Notes under the pieces: model-generated
Told to the model about the DNA's origin: nothing
The model's database searches: none
The model's input: only the letters and a program-made list of their open reading frames with translations
Made by a program: the position numbers and the translations under genes
In this document: one piece after another, positions 15,705 through 30,106 of the stretch
Position numbering within the stretch: position 1 is the first letter of the stretch
Layout of the letters: each line of letters starts with the position of its first letter
From: Sorangium cellulosum
GTDB taxonomy: Bacteria > Myxococcota_A > Polyangia > Polyangiales > Polyangiaceae
Direction of reading: 5' to 3'
Length of the DNA: 47,244 nucleotides
NCBI GenBank assembly: GCA_020720045.1
Contig: DYPH01000032.1
Coordinates: forward strand, 1 to 47,244

Positions 15705-16975
15705 CCACATTTTCCTCCGTTCTTTCCGAGTTTCATGCGCTCCTCGCTAGCGAGTTGAGCACCGCCTCGCCGTTCTCCGAGGTAACGGTAATTCGTGATC
15801 TGAAGGGCGTTCTTCGCGTCATCGTTAAGCCGAACGCAACGACGCCATCAGCGACGACGGCGACGGCAATCGCCAACCTGGAGACCGCGTTGGCGAACCT
15901 CGGCGCGTGGTTCGTGGCGCCCGTGCTTTCGACAGCAAGTCGCGACGCGGTTCACCGAGGAATCGCTTCCGCTCTCCATCAGCAAGCGACCGCCTGGACC
16001 CATGCGGCGACGATTCCGAACGTTATTCTCAAGAAACTTGAAAGGCGCCTCACAAAGGACTCGTGGACCTCCGACGAGGAAAAAGCGCCGGCGTGGCCAC
16101 TGAAGAAACAAACGCCGCCGATTGTCGCTTTCTTTTCCTTCAAGGGGGGCGTCGGGCGCACGACGGCGCTCGTCGGCTGCGCGTTGCTTCTCGCCCAGGA
16201 TTCAGAGAATAAAGTCGCAGTCGTCGACCTCGATCTTGAAGCCCCCGGCCTCGGCCCCTTCCTCAACGTCACGACCACCCGCGGGATTCTGGACGTCCTC
16301 GTCGACCACGCAGTGACCGGACAGGTCGACCTCAACGCCGCATCGAGCCCGCCCCAAGGGAACGCCTTCCCAACCAACGTGATGGTCTTTCCTGCATCGG
16401 GGGGGGCGATCGACGACGAGTACGTGGAGAAGCTCGGGCGCCTGGACTTCGGGCGCGCCGCCATAGGGACGGCGGATCCCCCCGTGCTTGGCGCACTGAA
16501 AGCGCTTCTCGATGCGCTAAAGCGAGACATGTATACGCATATCTTGCTCGATGCACGTGCCGGCCTTCACGACTTGGGCGGCCTTGCGCTCCATGGGCTC
16601 GCGCACATCGATGTGATCGTCGCCCGCCCCTCCGAGCAGACGTGGCCGGGTCTCCGCCACGCCCTCGGCCACCTCCGACGCGTTCGTGGGGAGACGATGG
16701 ACGTCGTGCTGGCCCACGCCCAGGCGCCGCGCGACGTGAACGCCCCGGAACACAGAGACTTTTCCGAGAAGACCTACGAAATCTTCACGGACGTTGTGTA
16801 CCCAGCGAGTGCGAGCGCGCCGGCCCAAGAAAATGGCGACGCGATCCATGCGGTGATACCGATCTTGAAGAGCGAAGATCTGCTGTATTTGAAGACGGCC
16901 GAGGGAATGCCGCTCACTTCTTTCGAGAAGCTAAACGCGCGAATCGTTGAACGCATCTCCCTTGCCCAGACATGA
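15701..16975 (+). CDS. KGGVGR-motif variant ParA/MinD-like ATPase (424 aa)
   Basis: An N-terminal domain of about 130 residues with no recognised family is followed by a SIMIBI-class ATPase. The deviant Walker A is FSFKGGVGRTT (about 145-155), with Arg where ParA has Lys. Switch I/Walker A' is VVDLDLEAPGLGPFL, and a Walker B-like strand ends HILLDARAGLHDLG. NCBI uses the name KGGVGR-motif variant AAA ATPase for this type. These occur beside P-loop NTPases in putative conflict systems; the biochemistry is unknown. The start is GTG at 15701, overlapping the HEPN stop; the end overlaps the next gene (ATGA at 16972). Confidence 0.75.
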   Translation: MTTFSSVLSEFHALLASELSTASPFSEVTVIRDLKGVLRVIVKPNATTPSATTATAIANLETALANLGAWFVAPVLSTASRDAVHRGIASALHQQATAWTHAATIPNVILKKLERRLTKDSWTSDEEKAPAWPLKKQTPPIVAFFSFKGGVGRTTALVGCALLLAQDSENKVAVVDLDLEAPGLGPFLNVTTTRGILDVLVDHAVTGQVDLNAASSPPQGNAFPTNVMVFPASGGAIDDEYVEKLGRLDFGRAAIGTADPPVLGALKALLDALKRDMYTHILLDARAGLHDLGGLALHGLAHIDVIVARPSEQTWPGLRHALGHLRRVRGETMDVVLAHAQAPRDVNAPEHRDFSEKTYEIFTDVVYPASASAPAQENGDAIHAVIPILKSEDLLYLKTAEGMPLTSFEKLNARIVERISLAQT

Positions 16976-18387
16976 ACAATCTCAACGAGCTACGCGCCGC
17001 ACTCGCTCGGTTGGCCGACAACCGTTCTGCAGAATTCCAGCAGGGGACGCTACGCCGGTACCTGCCGCTGCCGGCGCACACGCGCGCACTTCAGACGGAA
17101 ATAGCGGTCATCTCAGGGGCGGCAGGGTCAGGCAAGACTGCGCTCTTTCAGGCGCTCGCCAAGACGACCGACGCGGCCGCATTTTTCGCAACAACGGGCC
17201 CTTCATTCACGTGGATCGAAGGGTTCGCGAACAATGAGGCGCACCCCGCCGTTATCGAACTGGACGCCTTCGCGGCGACCGCCGACGACGCTCAACTCCA
17301 GCTTTTCTGGACCGTCCATCTCGCCAGGCGCTTGGCGGTCGGCCTCGAAATGGAGGACGCATTCCGTGAGGAGGGACTCCCCGAAACGCTGCTTGGGCCC
17401 GCTGTCCAACAAAAGGTCCCGTTTCACGCGCTCGCCGTCACGACGTATTCGGCGTTCCGCTTTCTCCAACGGGTCGACAATGCCCTGAAGGCTCGTGGGC
17501 AGTACGGCTACGTAGGCTACGACGGCCTCGACCTCCTCGGCCAATGGTCTCGGGAGGTGAATACGCGGTTCGCCGCGACGCTGCTCGCCCTTTGGGCATC
17601 CTTTGGGGCACGCTTTTATGCATTGCGGCCGAAGATCTTCCTTCGGGCAGATCTCTTCGAGCGCGCGGTCCGGCGGTCCGTAGATGCGTCGAAGCTGCGC
17701 GGGCGCCACGTCGACCTCGCCTGGTCGGTCCCGGATTTGTACCGGGTGGTCGTTCGCCATATGGCGGCGGAGGCGGAACTGCGGGGGTGGCTCGACGAAG
17801 TGGCTCCCGGCCTGGTGGTCGATGTCGACGGACGCGGCGCCATGCCTAGAGACATGCCGGAGGACGTTCAGAAGAGCTTTGCGACGGCGCTCGCCGGCCC
17901 GTTCATGGGCGCGGGAACGAACAAGGGATTCACGCACCGCTGGATCCCGAACCATCTGCAAGACGGGCTCGGGCGTCGAATGCCACGCTCCATGCTGGTG
18001 CTCCTTGGGAAGGCGGGCGACCTTGCCGCAGCGAGTCCGCCGCCGACCGAAACGCTCGTCGGGCCCAAGCAGCTTGTGAAGGCGCTTGATGAAACGTCAA
18101 AAGCCCGGGTCGCCGAACTCACGACGGAATTCCCCATCGTCCGTCGGATGGAACACCTGCGGAACTTGGTCCTTATGCTCCCTGAAGAAGAGGTCGCCGA
18201 CCGCTTGAGCAAGCCCGTCGACGACGAGGACCGCGAAACCACGAATGGTCCCGAAGTCGTCGAACGTTTCGTGGGTAACCTCGGACTGTTGGTCCGTCGG
18301 CGCCGCGGTGACGAGTCGGTGATCGACGTTCCCGATTTGTTTCGCGCCGGCTACGGGATCAAGCGGCCCGGCGGTGCTGCCGGCTAG
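16972..18387 (+). CDS. P-loop NTPase of the HEPN/KGGVGR operon (471 aa)
   Basis: Walker A is GAAGSGKT at residues 49-56, preceded by the strand AVIS. A probable Walker B strand is GYVGYDGLDLL (about 180-190), followed by the conserved-looking RPKIFLRADLFER, which resembles sensor regions of STAND-like or KAP-like NTPases. The last 150 residues are helical with no recognised domain. As in related modules, this NTPase may sense a signal and control a partner; that is inference. It is translationally coupled to the KGGVGR ATPase. The gene ends 34 bases before the convergent hsdS, with a small direct repeat (CTTCACCCCTTCTT) between them. Confidence 0.75.
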   Translation: MNNLNELRAALARLADNRSAEFQQGTLRRYLPLPAHTRALQTEIAVISGAAGSGKTALFQALAKTTDAAAFFATTGPSFTWIEGFANNEAHPAVIELDAFAATADDAQLQLFWTVHLARRLAVGLEMEDAFREEGLPETLLGPAVQQKVPFHALAVTTYSAFRFLQRVDNALKARGQYGYVGYDGLDLLGQWSREVNTRFAATLLALWASFGARFYALRPKIFLRADLFERAVRRSVDASKLRGRHVDLAWSVPDLYRVVVRHMAAEAELRGWLDEVAPGLVVDVDGRGAMPRDMPEDVQKSFATALAGPFMGAGTNKGFTHRWIPNHLQDGLGRRMPRSMLVLLGKAGDLAAASPPPTETLVGPKQLVKALDETSKARVAELTTEFPIVRRMEHLRNLVLMLPEEEVADRLSKPVDDEDRETTNGPEVVERFVGNLGLLVRRRRGDESVIDVPDLFRAGYGIKRPGGAAG

Positions 18388-18421: not shown

Positions 18422-20011
18422 TCACCCCTTCTTGGGCCGCCCACGCTTCTTCGGTGCCGCCGGTTCGCCCGCATCGACTGTCTCTGTGGCGAGCGTGGTG
18501 CGCGCCGGGCGCCCTCGCCCCTTGGGGGCTACATCGCCCGCGCCGGCCTTCACGCGCGCGAGCATGACGTCGGCCGGTTCGTCGTTCGGATCCTGAGGGA
18601 CCAGCTCCCCCCGAAACGCCTTCGCGAGGAGGGAGCGATCGAGGTCGATCAGGTGAGCGCGAGCAACGCTGAGGCTACTTAACCCCCAGCGAGTCTCTTG
18701 TGCCTTCAACAATGCTTCGATCGCCGACTGCTCCCCTGCGGGCGGGACTGGGAAGACAAGCGCCCTTACGTGTTCGACGTTCAAGCGCTGAACTGCGTTG
18801 CCAAAGCGCATCCGGTCGAACTGGTTCGTGAGAAGCGGCGATTGCAGGAGTCGCGCCACGAGGTAAGGAGCGACGTATTCCGTGCGAATTCGAGCAGACG
18901 ATTGCGTGATATTCGCACCGCTGAGTTCCGGCCCGACGATCAGCACCTTTCCAATTGTACCAACAATTGACAATACGACGTCGCCCGCCTTCAACTCGGA
19001 ACGGACGTAGTCATCCGCGATTTCCCGCGAAGTCCTATTGAGTGCGGCAAGGCTGACTTCACCAGAGCGTGAGATATCTGCTGGACGGATGTAAGGAATG
19101 CCTCCCTCGACGTGTTCGCCCGGTTGAATAATTCCGTAGACTGCCGCTTCGTGAACGTTCGAAAGTTCCTCAACACTCGCCCAGCACCACCCCTCGGGCA
19201 ATTCGGGCAAATCGGTCGTGTCTACCGGCTCGGGTTCTTTGTACTTGGCCTTCCACTTGTCGTCGGTCGGCTTCTTCCCCTTGGCCGTCATCTTCGCGAG
19301 TTCGGCCTCTTCCCACTTCTTGCGGCGCTCCACGCGGATGCGCGCGAGGAGGGCGGAGGCCGGTTCTACGTTGGGGTTCTTTTCGCGCCACTCTTTGGTG
19401 AGATCGCCGCGAAAGGCGGCCGCGAGGATCGATTGCCGCAGCTTCTCGAGGAGCGCGGGGACTTCGTCGAGGGCCGCCTTCGCGCGCCGGCTCCGCGCCT
19501 GAAGGGATTCAAGCTTCTCAACAATGCGCTTCTGCTCGTTGAGCGGGGGAAGCCAGATTGGAAGCAACTTGAGATCTGAACCAGAGATTCCAGTTTGTCC
19601 TGCGGATGACTTCACGCGATCTTCAATGAATTCACGCGAGCGATTGGAGTGTGAGTACTTTTCTACATATCGCGAGTCAGCGACCGGTGACACGCGGACG
19701 CGAATTAACTTGTCGGGAAATAGGGCAGGGATTGCTGCATTTACTCTCGCGCAGACACCTACGTAGTGAACGTTTCCATTGTATCGAGTGTAGAGAAGAT
19801 CCGATTCTCGGAGAGAATAGTCCGACCAGCGCGGATCTTGCCCCTCCAAGTAGCGCACATCGGATGGATTGAGGAGCATCGGTCGGACCGCACTGATTCG
19901 AAGGATTGGCTGTCCAGAATCTGCATTAGGATTGGTCGAAATCCCGTTTCGAACCCCCAGCGCAATGGCATCGAGCGTCGTCACCGTCCACCCCTTGGGA
20001 AGTTCACTCAT
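18422..20011 (-). CDS. hsdS: Type I restriction specificity subunit HsdS (529 aa)
   Basis: Two target-recognition domains are visible. The first begins LPKGWTVTTLDAIALGVRNGIS, and the second begins LPEGWCWASVEELSNVHEA near residue 245. Each is followed by a helical spacer, the first being LNEQKRIVEKLESLQARSRRAK. HsdS decides which DNA sequence the HsdM/HsdR complex recognises. The C-terminus is an alanine/lysine/proline-rich tail with AT-hook-like KKRGRPKK, an unusual addition that may bind DNA. The ATG at 20011 overlaps the stop of the upstream gene (ATGA). A duplicate of the last bases lies just past the stop. Confidence 0.9.
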   Translation of the reverse strand: MSELPKGWTVTTLDAIALGVRNGISTNPNADSGQPILRISAVRPMLLNPSDVRYLEGQDPRWSDYSLRESDLLYTRYNGNVHYVGVCARVNAAIPALFPDKLIRVRVSPVADSRYVEKYSHSNRSREFIEDRVKSSAGQTGISGSDLKLLPIWLPPLNEQKRIVEKLESLQARSRRAKAALDEVPALLEKLRQSILAAAFRGDLTKEWREKNPNVEPASALLARIRVERRKKWEEAELAKMTAKGKKPTDDKWKAKYKEPEPVDTTDLPELPEGWCWASVEELSNVHEAAVYGIIQPGEHVEGGIPYIRPADISRSGEVSLAALNRTSREIADDYVRSELKAGDVVLSIVGTIGKVLIVGPELSGANITQSSARIRTEYVAPYLVARLLQSPLLTNQFDRMRFGNAVQRLNVEHVRALVFPVPPAGEQSAIEALLKAQETRWGLSSLSVARAHLIDLDRSLLAKAFRGELVPQDPNDEPADVMLARVKAGAGDVAPKGRGRPARTTLATETVDAGEPAAPKKRGRPKKG

Positions 20012-20616
20012 TGCTCGGTTGCCTTCGGGAACCAGGTTTGTAGCGCCTGGGAAATTCGGTGGAGGGGGGAGTCGGGCTCGCTCTTGAGTTTGCCGAGGGG
20101 GAGGCGCTCGCCGAGCTGCTCGTGGAGGCGCGGATCGAGGCGCTTGATCCCGTGGCGCTTGCGCGCGGCGTCGAGCGACTCCTTCGGCAGAGCCCCGTCG
20201 AAGGGGACGCTGTCTGCCGGTTTGCCGAGTTCCGAAAGGACGCTGTGAACCCGGTCCCAGGCGGCGCCGTAGACCGCCTCGAGCTCGGGGACGAAGGCGA
20301 TCGCTTCGACGTTCGCCTCGGCGATCCCCGCCCCTACCAACATGCGACAGACGTCGGCCTCGACGTCGCGCGGCGCCTGCCGTTCGCGACCGCTGCCCTG
20401 GTGGTCCCAAAGGACCAGGTAGCGACTCGTCGCGTGCAACGCTGCAGATTCACGCAGAAACTCGACGGGTTGCTGGGCGACGCGGGCATCTCGGCCGGTA
20501 TGCCGCAGGTAACGGGCATCGAAGGGGGACAGGCAACGGCCGACTCCGCGCTTGATCATCGCCTGAACGGCGCGCCGCGCATCTTCGTCGGCGAAAACGA
20601 CGACCAACTCGCTCAC
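20008..20616 (-). CDS. Possible TOPRIM/DUF4276-like protein in the hsd operon (202 aa)
   Basis: The sequence begins with SELVVVFADEDARRAVQAM and later has YLVLWDHQGSGRE, an acidic pattern that could be a TOPRIM-like site. DUF4276 proteins often follow an AAA ATPase of this type and are thought to be nucleases, but the match here is by pattern only. The start is GTG at 20616, overlapping the stop of the ATPase gene, and the end overlaps hsdS by 4 bp. It is probably co-translated with both neighbours. It may add a second nuclease or a regulator to the restriction system. Confidence 0.6.
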   Translation of the reverse strand: MSELVVVFADEDARRAVQAMIKRGVGRCLSPFDARYLRHTGRDARVAQQPVEFLRESAALHATSRYLVLWDHQGSGRERQAPRDVEADVCRMLVGAGIAEANVEAIAFVPELEAVYGAAWDRVHSVLSELGKPADSVPFDGALPKESLDAARKRHGIKRLDPRLHEQLGERLPLGKLKSEPDSPLHRISQALQTWFPKATEQ

Positions 20617-21794
20617 GAGACGACCCCGGCGGCGAAGAGCGTCTCCAGGCGGACGGCGTCGTCCCAGCCCTTGGCCTTTGCGAGGTCGGAGCCGCGCACG
20701 ATGCTCGCGGAGCCGTCCGGATTCCGCGAGAAGCAGAGCGCGTCGTCGAGGGTCGCCTGGGCGAGGAAGATCGGCGAGTGCGTAGCCACGAAGACCTGGG
20801 TGTGCTCCATGCCGGCGAGAGCGTCGAACACGTACTGCATCGCGAGCGGGTGGAGGCCGTTCTCCGGCTCCTCGACGAGGACGATGCCGGCGTCGTCGGG
20901 CTTCTCCGCGTAGGCGAGGAGGGAGAGCGCGAGGAGGCGGAGCGTCCCGTCGGAAAGGAAGTTTGAAGGGACCCAGTCCGCGCGCCCTTGGAACTTCGCA
21001 CGAAGCACGGAAGCGCGGTCCTCGGGGCGGTCCCAAATATCGATCTCTTCGAGCCCCTCGACGGCGCCAGCAACGTGATCGACCCACTGACGAAACGCCG
21101 GAAGATCCCGCTCCCGAAGCGCCCGCGCCGCACTCGCTAGACTGGAACCATCGCTACTGAGGACCTTCGGACTCCATGCCGGCGACGGCGCGCGGAGCTT
21201 CGAGCTTTCGAGGGACACCAGACGTATCCCGTCCGTGAAGAAGCGGAGCGCAGCGTTGGCCCCCGCGAAGAGGACCGGGTCCTGGGGAACATGCCCAAGG
21301 GACGTGAATTTTCGCCCGATTCGAAACTGGAAGACCTGTCCGTTGCCATCGAACCAGTCAAGCCCGTCATCCGTCTTCCGAACGAGGACCTTGCCGTCAG
21401 ATTCCGGCATGGCCGCGAAAGTGTCGGAGCTTGGCTGCGGCGAAAAACCATGACGAATCGAGAGTTTCTCCCGAACAACGAGGGGACCGAATTCCGTCTC
21501 TCCGATCGCCACTTCGTACCGGTACCGGCCAGTCTGGAGTCGTAGATCGAGGGCGAACTCGAGGGGCGCGTCCCCCGCAAAGCACAAGTCTTTGAACTCC
21601 CCCCGGCTCCCGCCGAGCGCGAATCGGATCGCATCCTCGACGCCAAAGCGCACAAGGTTACTCACGAATTCGATGGCAGCCAGCAACGTCGTCTTCCCGG
21701 TGGCGTTCTTCCCGACGAGGATCGCGAAGTTCGAGAGGTCGACGCGATTGCTCCGGAGCATCCGGAAATTCTTGACCCAAATCCGCTCAATCAT
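20613..21794 (-). CDS. AAA family ATPase between hsdM and hsdS (393 aa)
   Basis: This is a RecF/OLD-type ATPase of the COG4637 style. The N-terminal strand MIERIWVKNFRML is followed by Walker A GKNATGKT (28-35). A signature-like SDGTLRLLALSLLAY, Walker B IVLVEEPENGLHP and switch histidine VATHSPIFLAQ lie in the C-terminal half. It overlaps hsdM by 4 bp upstream and the next gene by 4 bp downstream, so the four genes 18422-23374 form one coupled operon. Such ATPases can act as phage sensors with a nuclease partner. It could work with the possible TOPRIM-like gene as a separate defence pair carried within the restriction locus. Confidence 0.8.
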   Translation of the reverse strand: MIERIWVKNFRMLRSNRVDLSNFAILVGKNATGKTTLLAAIEFVSNLVRFGVEDAIRFALGGSRGEFKDLCFAGDAPLEFALDLRLQTGRYRYEVAIGETEFGPLVVREKLSIRHGFSPQPSSDTFAAMPESDGKVLVRKTDDGLDWFDGNGQVFQFRIGRKFTSLGHVPQDPVLFAGANAALRFFTDGIRLVSLESSKLRAPSPAWSPKVLSSDGSSLASAARALRERDLPAFRQWVDHVAGAVEGLEEIDIWDRPEDRASVLRAKFQGRADWVPSNFLSDGTLRLLALSLLAYAEKPDDAGIVLVEEPENGLHPLAMQYVFDALAGMEHTQVFVATHSPIFLAQATLDDALCFSRNPDGSASIVRGSDLAKAKGWDDAVRLETLFAAGVVS

Positions 21795-23468: not shown

Positions 23469-23726
23469 ATGCAACCGTTCCCGAAGCTGCCAGCCGCGAT
23501 CGCGACCCTCGTTCGAAGTGGCATTTACACGATCTTTGAGGTGAGCGATGGCACCTTCGTGCTCTTTACGAAGGCCGGGCTGGTTCACTCGCTCTCGAAT
23601 GAAGGGGCAGTTTCGACGCCGTTAGCTGGGAAATCAATTACCGACTTTTCGCTCAAGAAGCGAATCCGCCTCGACGGCGACGCGCCGTACCAAATGAACG
23701 CTCGGCGAGGCATCCGTGGCCGTTGA
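23469..23726 (+). CDS. Small hypothetical protein coupled to a caspase-like gene (85 aa)
   Basis: The family is not recognised. It has alternating hydrophobic residues (GIYTIFEVSDGTFVLFTKAG) that suggest a small beta domain, and a basic C-terminus (MNARRGIRGR). The ATG at 23469 has a GAGGG motif close upstream. The end overlaps the caspase-like gene by 11 bp, so the two are made together. In proteolytic defence modules a small partner can be the substrate, inhibitor or regulator of the protease. That role is only a guess here, based on linkage. Confidence 0.6.
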   Translation: MQPFPKLPAAIATLVRSGIYTIFEVSDGTFVLFTKAGLVHSLSNEGAVSTPLAGKSITDFSLKKRIRLDGDAPYQMNARRGIRGR

Positions 23727-24576
23727 GCACCTATTTGAAGCGCACAACACGTGCTGGATATTTGTCGCACTGTCGAACGAGCCTCGCCATCTCGACGACA
23801 TCACGTATTGCGTAAAAATCCTGTTGGGTCGTAGCGTATCGCCTGCCTCGATTTTCATTTTCTCTGATTTTCCGCAGGATGCAGAGTCGGAGACAGTGGA
23901 CGGCGACGTTCGTCCGAAGGTCCGTCATCCGTCGAGCCTCAAAGAGACGTTGGATTTAACGAGCTTTGAATACGCCTTTGTTGTTTGCGGCGGTCACGGA
24001 ACGATACGCGGTCTTCAAGGCGATGAAGAGGCAGAAACGTTCATTTCTCCCCATGCACTTCGCAAGGCGGTCGCAAGTATACGCGGCTTGAAGGTCGCTG
24101 CGCTGTGCTTCTGCCAATGCTATGCAGGCGTTTTCAACCACTTGGATTCCCACGAAGCAGCGCGCGCGGAGGGGGCGCCGATGCTCGTGTCTTTCGGCGC
24201 AACGATTTTCTATCCGTCGCTAAGCGCTCGTGCGGGAGGTCTTGGCTGGTCCGCGAATCTCTTTCAGGAAAATTTCTTCAAATGGATCGCGAATCCCGTC
24301 GACATCGATGGTGACGGTATCGCAAACCTGATCGATGGCTACAAATACGCGGGCGCTGACACGATCAAGGAACTCCAATGGGTATGGGCAGACGTGTTTG
24401 CGGAGTTGCCGAGCCATGTGGCCGCATTGGAAGCCGCGAAAATCAGCGGCGGTGACGAGGCAGAGTTGACGGCGCTTCAGGCAACCATCGATGAAGCGCA
24501 TTCCGTGCTCTACAATATTCAAGAGCCATGGCTCTCGAATCCACCGCTCGCGGCAGCCATCGCTATTTCCTTGTAG
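23716..24576 (+). CDS. Caspase-like cysteine protease (286 aa)
   Basis: The protein shows the clan CD layout. A strand ends in FVVCGGHG with candidate catalytic His94, and a second strand ends in ALCFCQCYAG with candidate catalytic Cys135. A strand-helix start (TCWIFVALSNEP) and the spacing between the two residues fit caspase and metacaspase-like folds. No membrane or sensor domain is attached. Bacterial caspase-like proteins often act in abortive infection by cutting host or partner proteins. The start is GTG at 23716; no better start exists in frame. It sits on the opposite strand inside the hsd locus, directly after the 85-aa gene. Confidence 0.75.
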   Translation: MAVEHLFEAHNTCWIFVALSNEPRHLDDITYCVKILLGRSVSPASIFIFSDFPQDAESETVDGDVRPKVRHPSSLKETLDLTSFEYAFVVCGGHGTIRGLQGDEEAETFISPHALRKAVASIRGLKVAALCFCQCYAGVFNHLDSHEAARAEGAPMLVSFGATIFYPSLSARAGGLGWSANLFQENFFKWIANPVDIDGDGIANLIDGYKYAGADTIKELQWVWADVFAELPSHVAALEAAKISGGDEAELTALQATIDEAHSVLYNIQEPWLSNPPLAAAIAISL

Positions 24577-24706: not shown

Positions 24707-24895
24707 CTAACCGTCGCCGCCGTAGTGCTTCGTCAAGCGGCCGTCGGGCGTGTAGATGCCGACGCTCACAGCGATCTTGCGACGGGCATCGGGCGACATC
24801 TTGAACATCGCCGCGAGCGCGCGTCGTCGGTGACGGGTTTCTTCGTCAAGGCCGGGCGCTTCGGGGTCGAGGGGCGGCTTCATGGAAAGATCCAT
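24707..24895 (-). CDS. Small conserved-looking protein after the DUF4917-like gene (62 aa)
   Basis: The protein has a short helical region (HRRRALAAMFKMSPDARRKI) followed by AVSVGIYTPDGRLTKHYGGDG. The ending resembles small bacterial proteins of unknown function that close with a KxYGG-type motif; this is pattern recognition only. The ATG at 24895 overlaps the end of the DUF4917-like gene by 16 bp; a second ATG 12 bases later is an alternative start. If real, it is the third gene of the hsdR / DUF4917-like leftward unit. A regulator or antitoxin role is possible but unproven. Confidence 0.5.
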   Translation of the reverse strand: MDLSMKPPLDPEAPGLDEETRHRRRALAAMFKMSPDARRKIAVSVGIYTPDGRLTKHYGGDG

Positions 24896-25896
24896 ACCCC
24901 GGGATCGTCGTGGTGAAAGAAGCGGAGCGTGGCGTTCGGAAGCTTCTTACGGACGCGTGAAGATACGTCGTGAGCGAACGATTGCTGTTCGCTGTCAGGT
25001 TGGCCGCTAAAGACGGAGACCGCCAGCGTGCTCGGAGGGTTGGTGGCCATCGCGTCGAGGACGTGCGTGTCATTCTCGGCAAATGAGAATCCGTACGCAA
25101 CGACGTTGGAACCAAGCTTGGTCAGGACCTGGTTGTACACGGTGTTCAAATAAAGACTCTGGCGAATCGTCGCGAGTTTTTCCGTAGCGGTCCCTTCACT
25201 TACGAAGAGAGGGTCACGGCCATTCGCCCAAGCCCCGTCGATGACCTTGCGAAGGTTTTCGGAGGAAGTCTTTGCTAATTTTTGTTCGGGTGTTCTCACT
25301 ATCGCGAGACTCCCGTGCGGATAGAAATAGAGCTTCTGCTCAGCATCGTTGTAAGATGACGGCCATGAAGGGGATCGCGGATCGAAGTTTCCGTGACTGA
25401 ATCCGTCCTTAAATATCTTCGAACTGTCTATCAGTACCCAATACAGCGTGAGATCATAGTTGAATGTTATAATCTTTCGAAACTTCTTCACGAATGCACG
25501 GATGTTATCTTTACTGGTGTTCCATTCGGAGCTTTTCTTTATCAGTTCAATAGGTTCGATGTGCTTCTTGTTTACCGCTTCAATCAACGCGTTACGAACG
25601 GCAGCCGAGGCCGTATCGATGGAACTTTCAGAGATACCGAAGTGCAGAGCGAGCTTCTTAATGTCCGACAAGACACGAAGAACATGTTCGAAGTTGGTTG
25701 TGTCGAGACCTTGAAAGATCGGCGTAATTGCGTTCCTGTGGCTCCCTTTTGTGGAAGCATACTCGTATAGAGATTTATACGAGAAGGCGCTATCCAGGGC
25801 CATACTTGCGCCGTTTCCTAGAATCAGCGAGTTCCACGGATTGTTACCCAATGACTTTTCGATATCCCCAAGAGTCTCGATACTAATATCGTTCAT
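24880..25896 (-). CDS. DUF4917-like protein, SIR2-like fold (338 aa)
   Basis: The N-terminal SLILGNGASMALD resembles the nucleotide-binding loop of SIR2-like proteins. IITFNYDLTLYWVL, a YFYPHGSLAI segment, LFVSEGTATEKLATIRQSLYL and VVAYGFSFAENDTHVLDAM follow in the order seen in DUF4917 proteins. SIR2-like domains in defence systems commonly destroy NAD+ to stop phage growth. Whether this member keeps that activity is inferred. The gene is clearly richer in A+T than its neighbours and uses many Asn, Lys and Ile codons, a sign of recent transfer. It starts 36 bases after hsdR ends, so co-transcription is possible. Confidence 0.75.
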   Translation of the reverse strand: MNDISIETLGDIEKSLGNNPWNSLILGNGASMALDSAFSYKSLYEYASTKGSHRNAITPIFQGLDTTNFEHVLRVLSDIKKLALHFGISESSIDTASAAVRNALIEAVNKKHIEPIELIKKSSEWNTSKDNIRAFVKKFRKIITFNYDLTLYWVLIDSSKIFKDGFSHGNFDPRSPSWPSSYNDAEQKLYFYPHGSLAIVRTPEQKLAKTSSENLRKVIDGAWANGRDPLFVSEGTATEKLATIRQSLYLNTVYNQVLTKLGSNVVAYGFSFAENDTHVLDAMATNPPSTLAVSVFSGQPDSEQQSFAHDVSSRVRKKLPNATLRFFHHDDPGVWIFP

Positions 25897-29526: not shown

Positions 29527-29770
29527 TTCAGCGGGGCGCGGATGAGCCCCAACCGCTGAATCTACCTGTCCTTCTGCCGACCGGAAACGGGAACTGTCGC
29601 CAAGGCGCGCCAACCGTCGATTGCGTCACCGTCGAAGCTGCGACCAACGCTTTAGGAAAGCGCTGCTCGATCCGCGGAGCGACGCAACGAACGCCGCGCC
29701 GTCGTCGCCGGAACAATGGCAGGGGCCCCGGCCGCTCCACCATCGAAACGTGCTCCCGCCCAGGGGGTCC
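29527..29770. other. Non-coding spacer and left flank of array 2
   Basis: No gene recognised. The last 25 bases (GTGCTCCCGCCCAGGG) match the left flank of array 1, showing a shared boundary. Confidence 0.5.
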
Positions 29771-30106
29771 GAGACACTTCAACCGCACAAGACCCCTGCC
29801 GCCCAGGGGTCCGAGACACTTCAACCGCACGGAACCCCTGTCGCTCAGCGGTCCGAGACACTTCAACCGCACGGAACCCCTGTCGCTCAGCGGTCCGAGA
29901 CACTTCAACCGCACGGAACCCCTGCCGGTCAGCGGTCCGAGACACTTCAACCGCACGGAACCCCTGTCGGGCAGCGGTTTGAGACACTTCAACCGCACGG
30001 AACCCCTGCCGGGCAGGGGTTTGAGACAGTTCAACCGCACGGAACCCCTGTCGGTCAGGGGTTTGAGACAGTTCAACCGCAGGAAACCCCTGCCGGTCAG
30101 GGGTCG
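29771..30106. repeat. 42-bp tandem array, eight units (array 2)
   Basis: Units begin at 29771, 29813, 29855, 29897, 29939, 29981, 30023 and 30065. Each has the same constant part and hairpin as array 1. The last two units carry GAGACAGTTC instead of GAGACACTTC; in array 1 only the last unit does. The right flank TCGGCTACGTAAAAACACTC is shared with array 1. The array lies between hsdR and the RND operon, so the two arrays bracket the restriction locus. Confidence 0.9.

Follow-up and report, generated by a model that had tools for sequence, protein, structure and literature searches.

A mobile two-gene module, present in a Sorangium cellulosum hsd locus, joins a legumain-like cysteine protease to a small constant companion

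The hsd locus of Sorangium cellulosum contig DYPH01000032.1 carries, between its hsdM group and its hsdR-DUF4917 group, a mobile module of two genes that encode a cysteine protease of legumain/caspase build and a small protein that is its constant companion. The cassette resembles a toxin-antitoxin or anti-phage system built on a protease. It was analysed within the stretch covering positions 1 to 47,244 of the contig, referred to here as the window. The first gene (23469..23726, + strand; coding part 23469-23723) encodes the partner, 85 aa followed by a stop codon, and the second (23716..24576, + strand; coding part 23716-24573) starts with GTG and encodes the protease, 286 aa plus stop, the coding parts overlapping by 8 nt on the same strand. 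An initial annotation made from the letters of the DNA had placed both reading frames at these coordinates and had noted that the protease lacks a fused sensor, which is the case; numbering from the GTG at 23716 gives H94 for the His of CGGHG and C135 for the Cys of CQCYAG, both in agreement with that annotation. The window protease was recovered by a family profile built without the window (E=2.6e-57), and the window partner by a profile of 24 partners that likewise left the window out (E=1.2e-4). Taken with the presence of protease homologs in several phyla, these matches indicate that neither is a chance ORF. The protease is a single-copy gene within its genome. Searches of Pfam, NCBIfam, PADLOC and PHROG returned no family model for the window protease or partner, and neither a sigma-70-type promoter nor a flanking repeat marking insertion was found for the window cassette.

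Folding of the protease from its single sequence gave an unusable model (pLDDT 41), and AlphaFold2 with a 30-member alignment gave one with a pLDDT of 84.4 and a pTM of 0.85. The best PDB matches of the protease in Foldseek (E=6e-7) were legumains and plant asparaginyl ligases, and GPI transamidase was among the hits as well; VIA-align matched 214 residues to an asparaginyl endopeptidase (Z=20.2, rmsd 3.2), compared to Z=17 for metacaspase and 16-17 for caspases. By sequence as well, legumains came first with the family profile (E=6e-4 and weaker), and the profile alignment set R24-H25 on the legumain Arg-His (Arg44, His45) and the HG and C motifs on the catalytic ones. A caspase-like site had been proposed for this protein, with absence of a clan CD fold named as the finding that would speak against it. 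The clan CD fold is present in the alignment-based model (Z about 20 to legumain) and the His and Cys are rightly placed, but the nearest solved fold is that of legumain (C13) and not that of a caspase. Alignment to legumains suggests a suitable His-Cys distance, and we take the spacing of 41 between H94 and C135 to equal that between His148 and Cys189 of legumain. The gathering score of the Pfam C13 model PF01650 was not reached by any member, weak matches being obtained for 9 of 30 (best E=0.005) and none for the window protein, and the protease is for this reason called legumain-like and not a C13 member. No Pfam caspase-family model matched the 30 protease members, and PADLOC-DB 2.0.0 held no meaningful match for these or for the window pair.

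Residues invariant in 30/30 aligned proteases are W14, R24, D28, D51, H94, G95, Q134, C135, G138 and F140 in the first half of the protein and N141, S168, S170, W178, N181, D196, D198, G199, D207 and K210 in the second. R24 and D28 bound the motif R24-H25-L-D-D28 (23785..23799, + strand), which the profile alignment relates to legumains and in which position 25 is H in 24 members and F in 6. The predicted catalytic His lies in G93-H94-G95 (23992..24003, + strand) at the end of a core strand (residues 86-96 of the model), and the predicted catalytic Cys, C135, lies in C133-Q134-C135-Y-A-G138 (24112..24129, + strand) after the strand formed by residues 127-132, where the C133-Q134-C135 motif is aligned with the catalytic Cys motif of legumain. 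The S1 pocket of human legumain is made up of Arg44, His45, Ser216 and Asp231 (PMC4357240). Reading of the motifs indicates that S170 is probably the counterpart of Ser216 and that Asp231 seems to have no conserved counterpart, and because of this seemingly missing residue the P1 preference of the protease may be Asp rather than Asn. Further along, D196-I-D198-G-D200-G-I-A-N-L-I-D207 (24301..24336, + strand) follows the 12-residue EF-hand pattern D196-x-D198-G-D200-G...D207, with D or N at position 200 across the 30 proteases. This EF-hand-like loop is a possible Ca2+ site, and several clan CD families need Ca2+ (PMC4357240).

Two myxobacterial relatives with 37% identity to the window protease seeded the alignment that yielded 14 IMG/VR contigs, 23 GTDB loci and 5 more viral contigs. 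Homologs occur in Myxococcota, Proteobacteria, Bdellovibrio, Spirochaetes and Melainabacteria-like MAGs, and the recorded hosts include Pseudomonas, Burkholderia, Pandoraea, Duganella, Luteibacter, Kluyvera, Vibrio, Bdellovibrio, Treponema, Melainabacteria/Caenarcaniphilales and gut Alphaproteobacteria. Relatives were found with a three-sequence alignment, whereas a pattern scan of the genome and viral contigs with the single protein returned none, and tblastn of the window protein and three relatives against plasmid and phage record collections gave no matches. One weak match (L006) was discarded as spurious, since the ORF is absent there. In a Melainabacteria-type MAG (L045, 1500-1570) the protease frame stops where relatives have the first conserved Trp; this copy is possibly degenerate, an assembly error or a case of recoding. 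Large myxobacterial caspase-family proteins also match the protease profile weakly. In five loci (L019, L021, L024, L026 and L027) the H, the C and a D-rich loop, VTLxEAYxY, follow one another as in the protease; the loop may be of ancient origin within a broader set of bacterial clan CD proteins. Other weak matches fall in a reading frame that lacks the motifs, which makes this a lead only.

The coupling to the 85-aa protein, which had been proposed from the window, is genuine, as profiles built without the window found the partner directly 5′ of the protease and on the same strand in 38/42 fetched loci. The remaining 4 are incomplete on the 5′ side, and every locus that is intact there has the partner. 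Three of them (L030, L032, L041) start at the protease, and in the fourth (L063) a gene for an IS-type ATPase, which by eye we take to be IstB-like, stands 5′ of it; the partner is present in fuller copies of two, namely the E. coli island L097 (= L030) and the Kluyvera locus L059 (= L041). With the small gene first and two co-oriented neighbours, the 38 loci have a type II-like toxin-antitoxin layout. Partner and protease were found in the identical 3 of 318 genomes of the class, with a partner profile that includes those three, and the two proteins diverge together (r=0.94 between their distance matrices; 0/2000 permutations).

The C-terminal tail of the window partner (23679..23723, + strand) consists of APYQMNARRGIRGR and the residue preceding it, and Asn77 in its QMN is the proposed P1 residue; the window motif is QMN and not PxSLSN, and is assigned by position alone. 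Asn occurs within the last 16 residues of 25/25 aligned partners, compared to about 12.8 expected from composition, although the members are related and do not amount to 25 independent cases. Seventeen relatives have PxSLSN in the tail, in which P, S, L, S and N are almost maximally conserved and after which conservation drops sharply (the window is included in the printed group of 18, but its internal SLSN is unrelated). The tail of L070, KSN-IV, compared to RSD-LV in its relative L061, displays an Asn/Asp swap that could be acceptable to a legumain-type pocket. The partner of L045 has a tail without Asn, and in L057, beside an intact protease, an SLSN tail that is otherwise whole is put out of frame by a T-run, possibly an assembly error. 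Judged by its sequence, the tail motif could be bound or cleaved by a legumain-like protease. The partner profile had no significant match in the PDB, the partner belongs to no Pfam family, and the partner alignment is too diverse for a pattern scan.

Outside the window, the cassette travels mostly as cargo in prophages, in satellites that carry capsid genes, or in islands of recombinase and defence genes. Neighbours recognised by Pfam comprise a capsid-protease fusion (L034), a terminase (L030), a lambda-type integrase (L059), a tail protein (L033), a head-tail connector (L070), integrases (L036, L039, L056) and resolvases (L044, L052, L061), as well as the defence-type genes for an OLD-like ATPase and a UvrD-type helicase (L060), a TOTE primase-helicase (L057), hsdM/hsdS (L061) and a RES domain (L044). 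Elsewhere (L046, 6913-11280, − strand), a 1456-aa protein whose C-terminal domain is of the phage MuF type is encoded convergently with the cassette. A DNA search with the L034 copy matched 14 of 5,426 complete E. coli genomes, the Kluyvera copy used as query matched nothing in E. coli, and all E. coli copies, including the pair in NZ_CP024240.1, are annotated as "hypothetical". They lie in a tRNA-Ile element with an integrase and a capsid-protease fusion, in a fis-linked island with terminase, portal and capsid, and in a lambdoid prophage. At the same fis site of a related island, a different small gene occupies the cassette slot. A HEPN-domain protein is encoded inside the small cassette-bearing satellite at tRNA-Ile (L096, 12873-13586). 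In E. coli F11 (L098, 5322-6292) IS1 has interrupted the protease gene and left the partner gene whole, a single case that fits the protease as the harmful half.

From these observations we infer, tentatively and at a little short of an even chance, that the protease is a latent legumain-fold effector, checked by its propeptide-like upstream partner and released in infection or stress to stop growth. The latent enzyme would be co-produced with the small partner encoded directly upstream, which would act as a legumain propeptide in trans, its tail offering Asn, or sometimes Asp, to an S1 pocket of R24, H25 and S170 and restraining the protease as a slow substrate or a pseudosubstrate. Infection by a rival phage, or some other stress, would then free the protease through loss or cleavage of the partner or, alternatively, through Ca2+ bound at the EF-hand-like loop, and the freed enzyme would cut cellular or phage proteins, leading to growth arrest or death that would protect the resident prophage, satellite or kin. 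Counted for an inhibitory partner are the fold and the legumain-first sequence match with the invariant catalytic H and C and the S1-type Arg; the constant pairing, co-divergence, conserved tail Asn and Asn/Asp swap; and carriage by prophages, satellites and islands, with several copies beside defence genes. Legumain itself offers a further point, as its zymogen is blocked by a C-terminal prodomain and is processed at Asn323 (PMC4357240). Against an inhibitory partner, the seemingly missing counterpart of Asp231 may mean that Asp rather than Asn is taken at P1, the L057 protease is intact beside an out-of-frame tail if the T-run there is real, and carriage by a prophage does not by itself imply a defence role. 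The C-termini of proteins, moreover, tend in any case to vary.

Other roles for the pair were weighed against the same evidence. Rather than inhibiting the protease, the partner might recruit it or switch it on, for example on a phage protein, and so be an adaptor or sensor; the module has no other sensor and two-gene systems with a small sensor exist, but such a role by itself leaves the conserved Asn tail suited to the active site unexplained, and we regard it as possible but doubtful. Somewhat less probable, and in our judgement unlikely, is that the partner is the effector and turns toxic when the protease cuts its tail after Asn during infection, much as gasdermins are activated by bacterial proteases that remove a short C-terminal peptide. 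This agrees with the constant pairing and with a tail that is conserved up to a candidate P1 Asn and then ends in a short variable stretch, but the partner is only about 90 aa with no recognisable effector domain, and the conserved part precedes the Asn, so that a cut would remove just 2-18 residues. The many copies in prophages and satellites, some of them between structural genes, might instead indicate service in the life cycle of the element, such as the processing of proteins of the virion or of a helper phage, or the exclusion of superinfecting phages by receptor cutting, and not suicide. Against this, the position varies among elements (head, tail, integrase and replication regions), related islands lack the cassette and chromosomal copies occur in defence-type settings (the window, L057, L060), and we hold it slightly less likely still. 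GPI transamidase and plant asparaginyl ligases are transamidases that share the legumain-like fold, and the enzyme could by analogy be a transamidase besides a protease, trimming the partner after Asn and transferring it to amines of target proteins; such activity is very improbable here, and would, if true, constitute a protein-tagging system unrelated to ubiquitin E1/E2 chemistry.

The location of the window cassette had suggested a back-up suicide module that fires when restriction fails. Besides its position between hsdM and hsdR, the one other lineage near hsd genes (L061/L062/L064) speaks for this reading, with a recombinase between the pair and hsdM/hsdS, but most relatives are near no hsd gene and none of the 19 closest hsdM loci carries the cassette, which elsewhere is found mainly in prophages, satellites and recombinase islands. 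The functional tie to restriction is thus unsupported and we give this reading scarcely any probability, while a suicide function of the cassette as such would be plausible. Where both ends are visible, the hsdR-hsdM gap in related hsdM loci ranges from ~10 bp to >1 kb. This gap is a slot for variable cargo, and the cassette is not a fixed component of hsd.

Several other genes of the window locus deserve mention. A second accessory gene of the hsdR-hsdM gap (24880-25896, − strand) encodes a DUF4917 protein (Pfam E=1.8e-58), which is PADLOC candidate PDC-S21 with a weak SIR2-like match, and a 62-aa ORF without a family match (24707-24895, − strand) overlaps the end of this gene on the same strand and may be translationally coupled to it. 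Between hsdM and hsdS lie genes for an AAA ATPase (20008-21794, − strand; AbiEii/AriA-like) and then a 201-aa protein without a family match, a pair also present in one related hsd locus (L077). Adjoining hsdS is a gene for a 471-aa P-loop protein (16972-18387, + strand; PADLOC candidate PDC-M28C, E=2e-53), and a tandem array of ~8 copies of a 42-bp unit (93% matches) is located upstream of hsdR (29764-30105).

Caspase-fold proteases, including gasdermin-linked ones, are known in bacterial immunity, and we know of none that has the partner described here. The closest likeness is to legumain (asparaginyl endopeptidase, MEROPS C13), in fold (Z about 20), in the aligned His/Cys motifs, in the S1-type Arg and in an inhibitory piece, here a presumed one, with a conserved Asn (PMC4357240). 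In contrast to legumain, the module has this presumed piece encoded by a gene of its own upstream, and the window protease has the EF-hand-like loop, falls short of the PF01650 cut-off and apparently lacks the Asp231-type residue; no signal peptide was seen in it. TIR-activated caspase-like immunity (Rousset et al. 2025, cited in PMC12799240) is alike in having a caspase-fold protease as proposed bacterial immune effector, but the cassette has a small partner and not a nucleotide signal, and no TIR gene is among the scanned window neighbours. The TPR-CHAT protease that goes with gRAMP in type III-E CRISPR Craspase (PMC9729208) is likewise a caspase-fold protease in phage defence, and no CHAT or TPR match was found in the 30 protease members and no Cas genes among the window neighbours. 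With marker genes absent beside the window pair, TIR-caspase, Craspase and gasdermin-linked identities were rejected. The MaOC1 orthocaspase of Microcystis is a bacterial caspase homolog tied to toxin-antitoxin biology through a ParDE-like pair, but it cuts the antitoxin of a separate toxin (PMC7935541), whereas the cassette protease is the proposed effector itself, and by library search the partner is unrelated to that pair. The trypsin-like protease-nuclease pairs of Hachiman and AVAST also join a protease to a dedicated neighbour in antiviral immunity, and differ in protease clan, in having a nuclease proenzyme as partner and in belonging to larger systems (PMC12799240). As in the antiviral hotspots of prophages and P4/PICI satellites (PMC9122126), the cassette is swappable cargo, in E. 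coli among other hosts; it differs in being absent from PADLOC-DB 2.0.0 and in having a protective effect that is putative. We found no description of the pair in the literature, which, with partial coverage and nameless genes, is weak evidence of novelty.

The module adds an unnamed protease-based system to the mobile elements of bacteria and phages; its control would resemble that of the legumain zymogen, with the inhibitory piece apparently supplied by a separate gene. Because satellites and prophages of E. coli carry it, annotated as two "hypothetical proteins", its toxicity, cleavage and protection against phage are directly testable in laboratory strains of that species. Confirmation would link the legumain branch of the caspase fold to bacterial immunity or to toxin-antitoxin biology.
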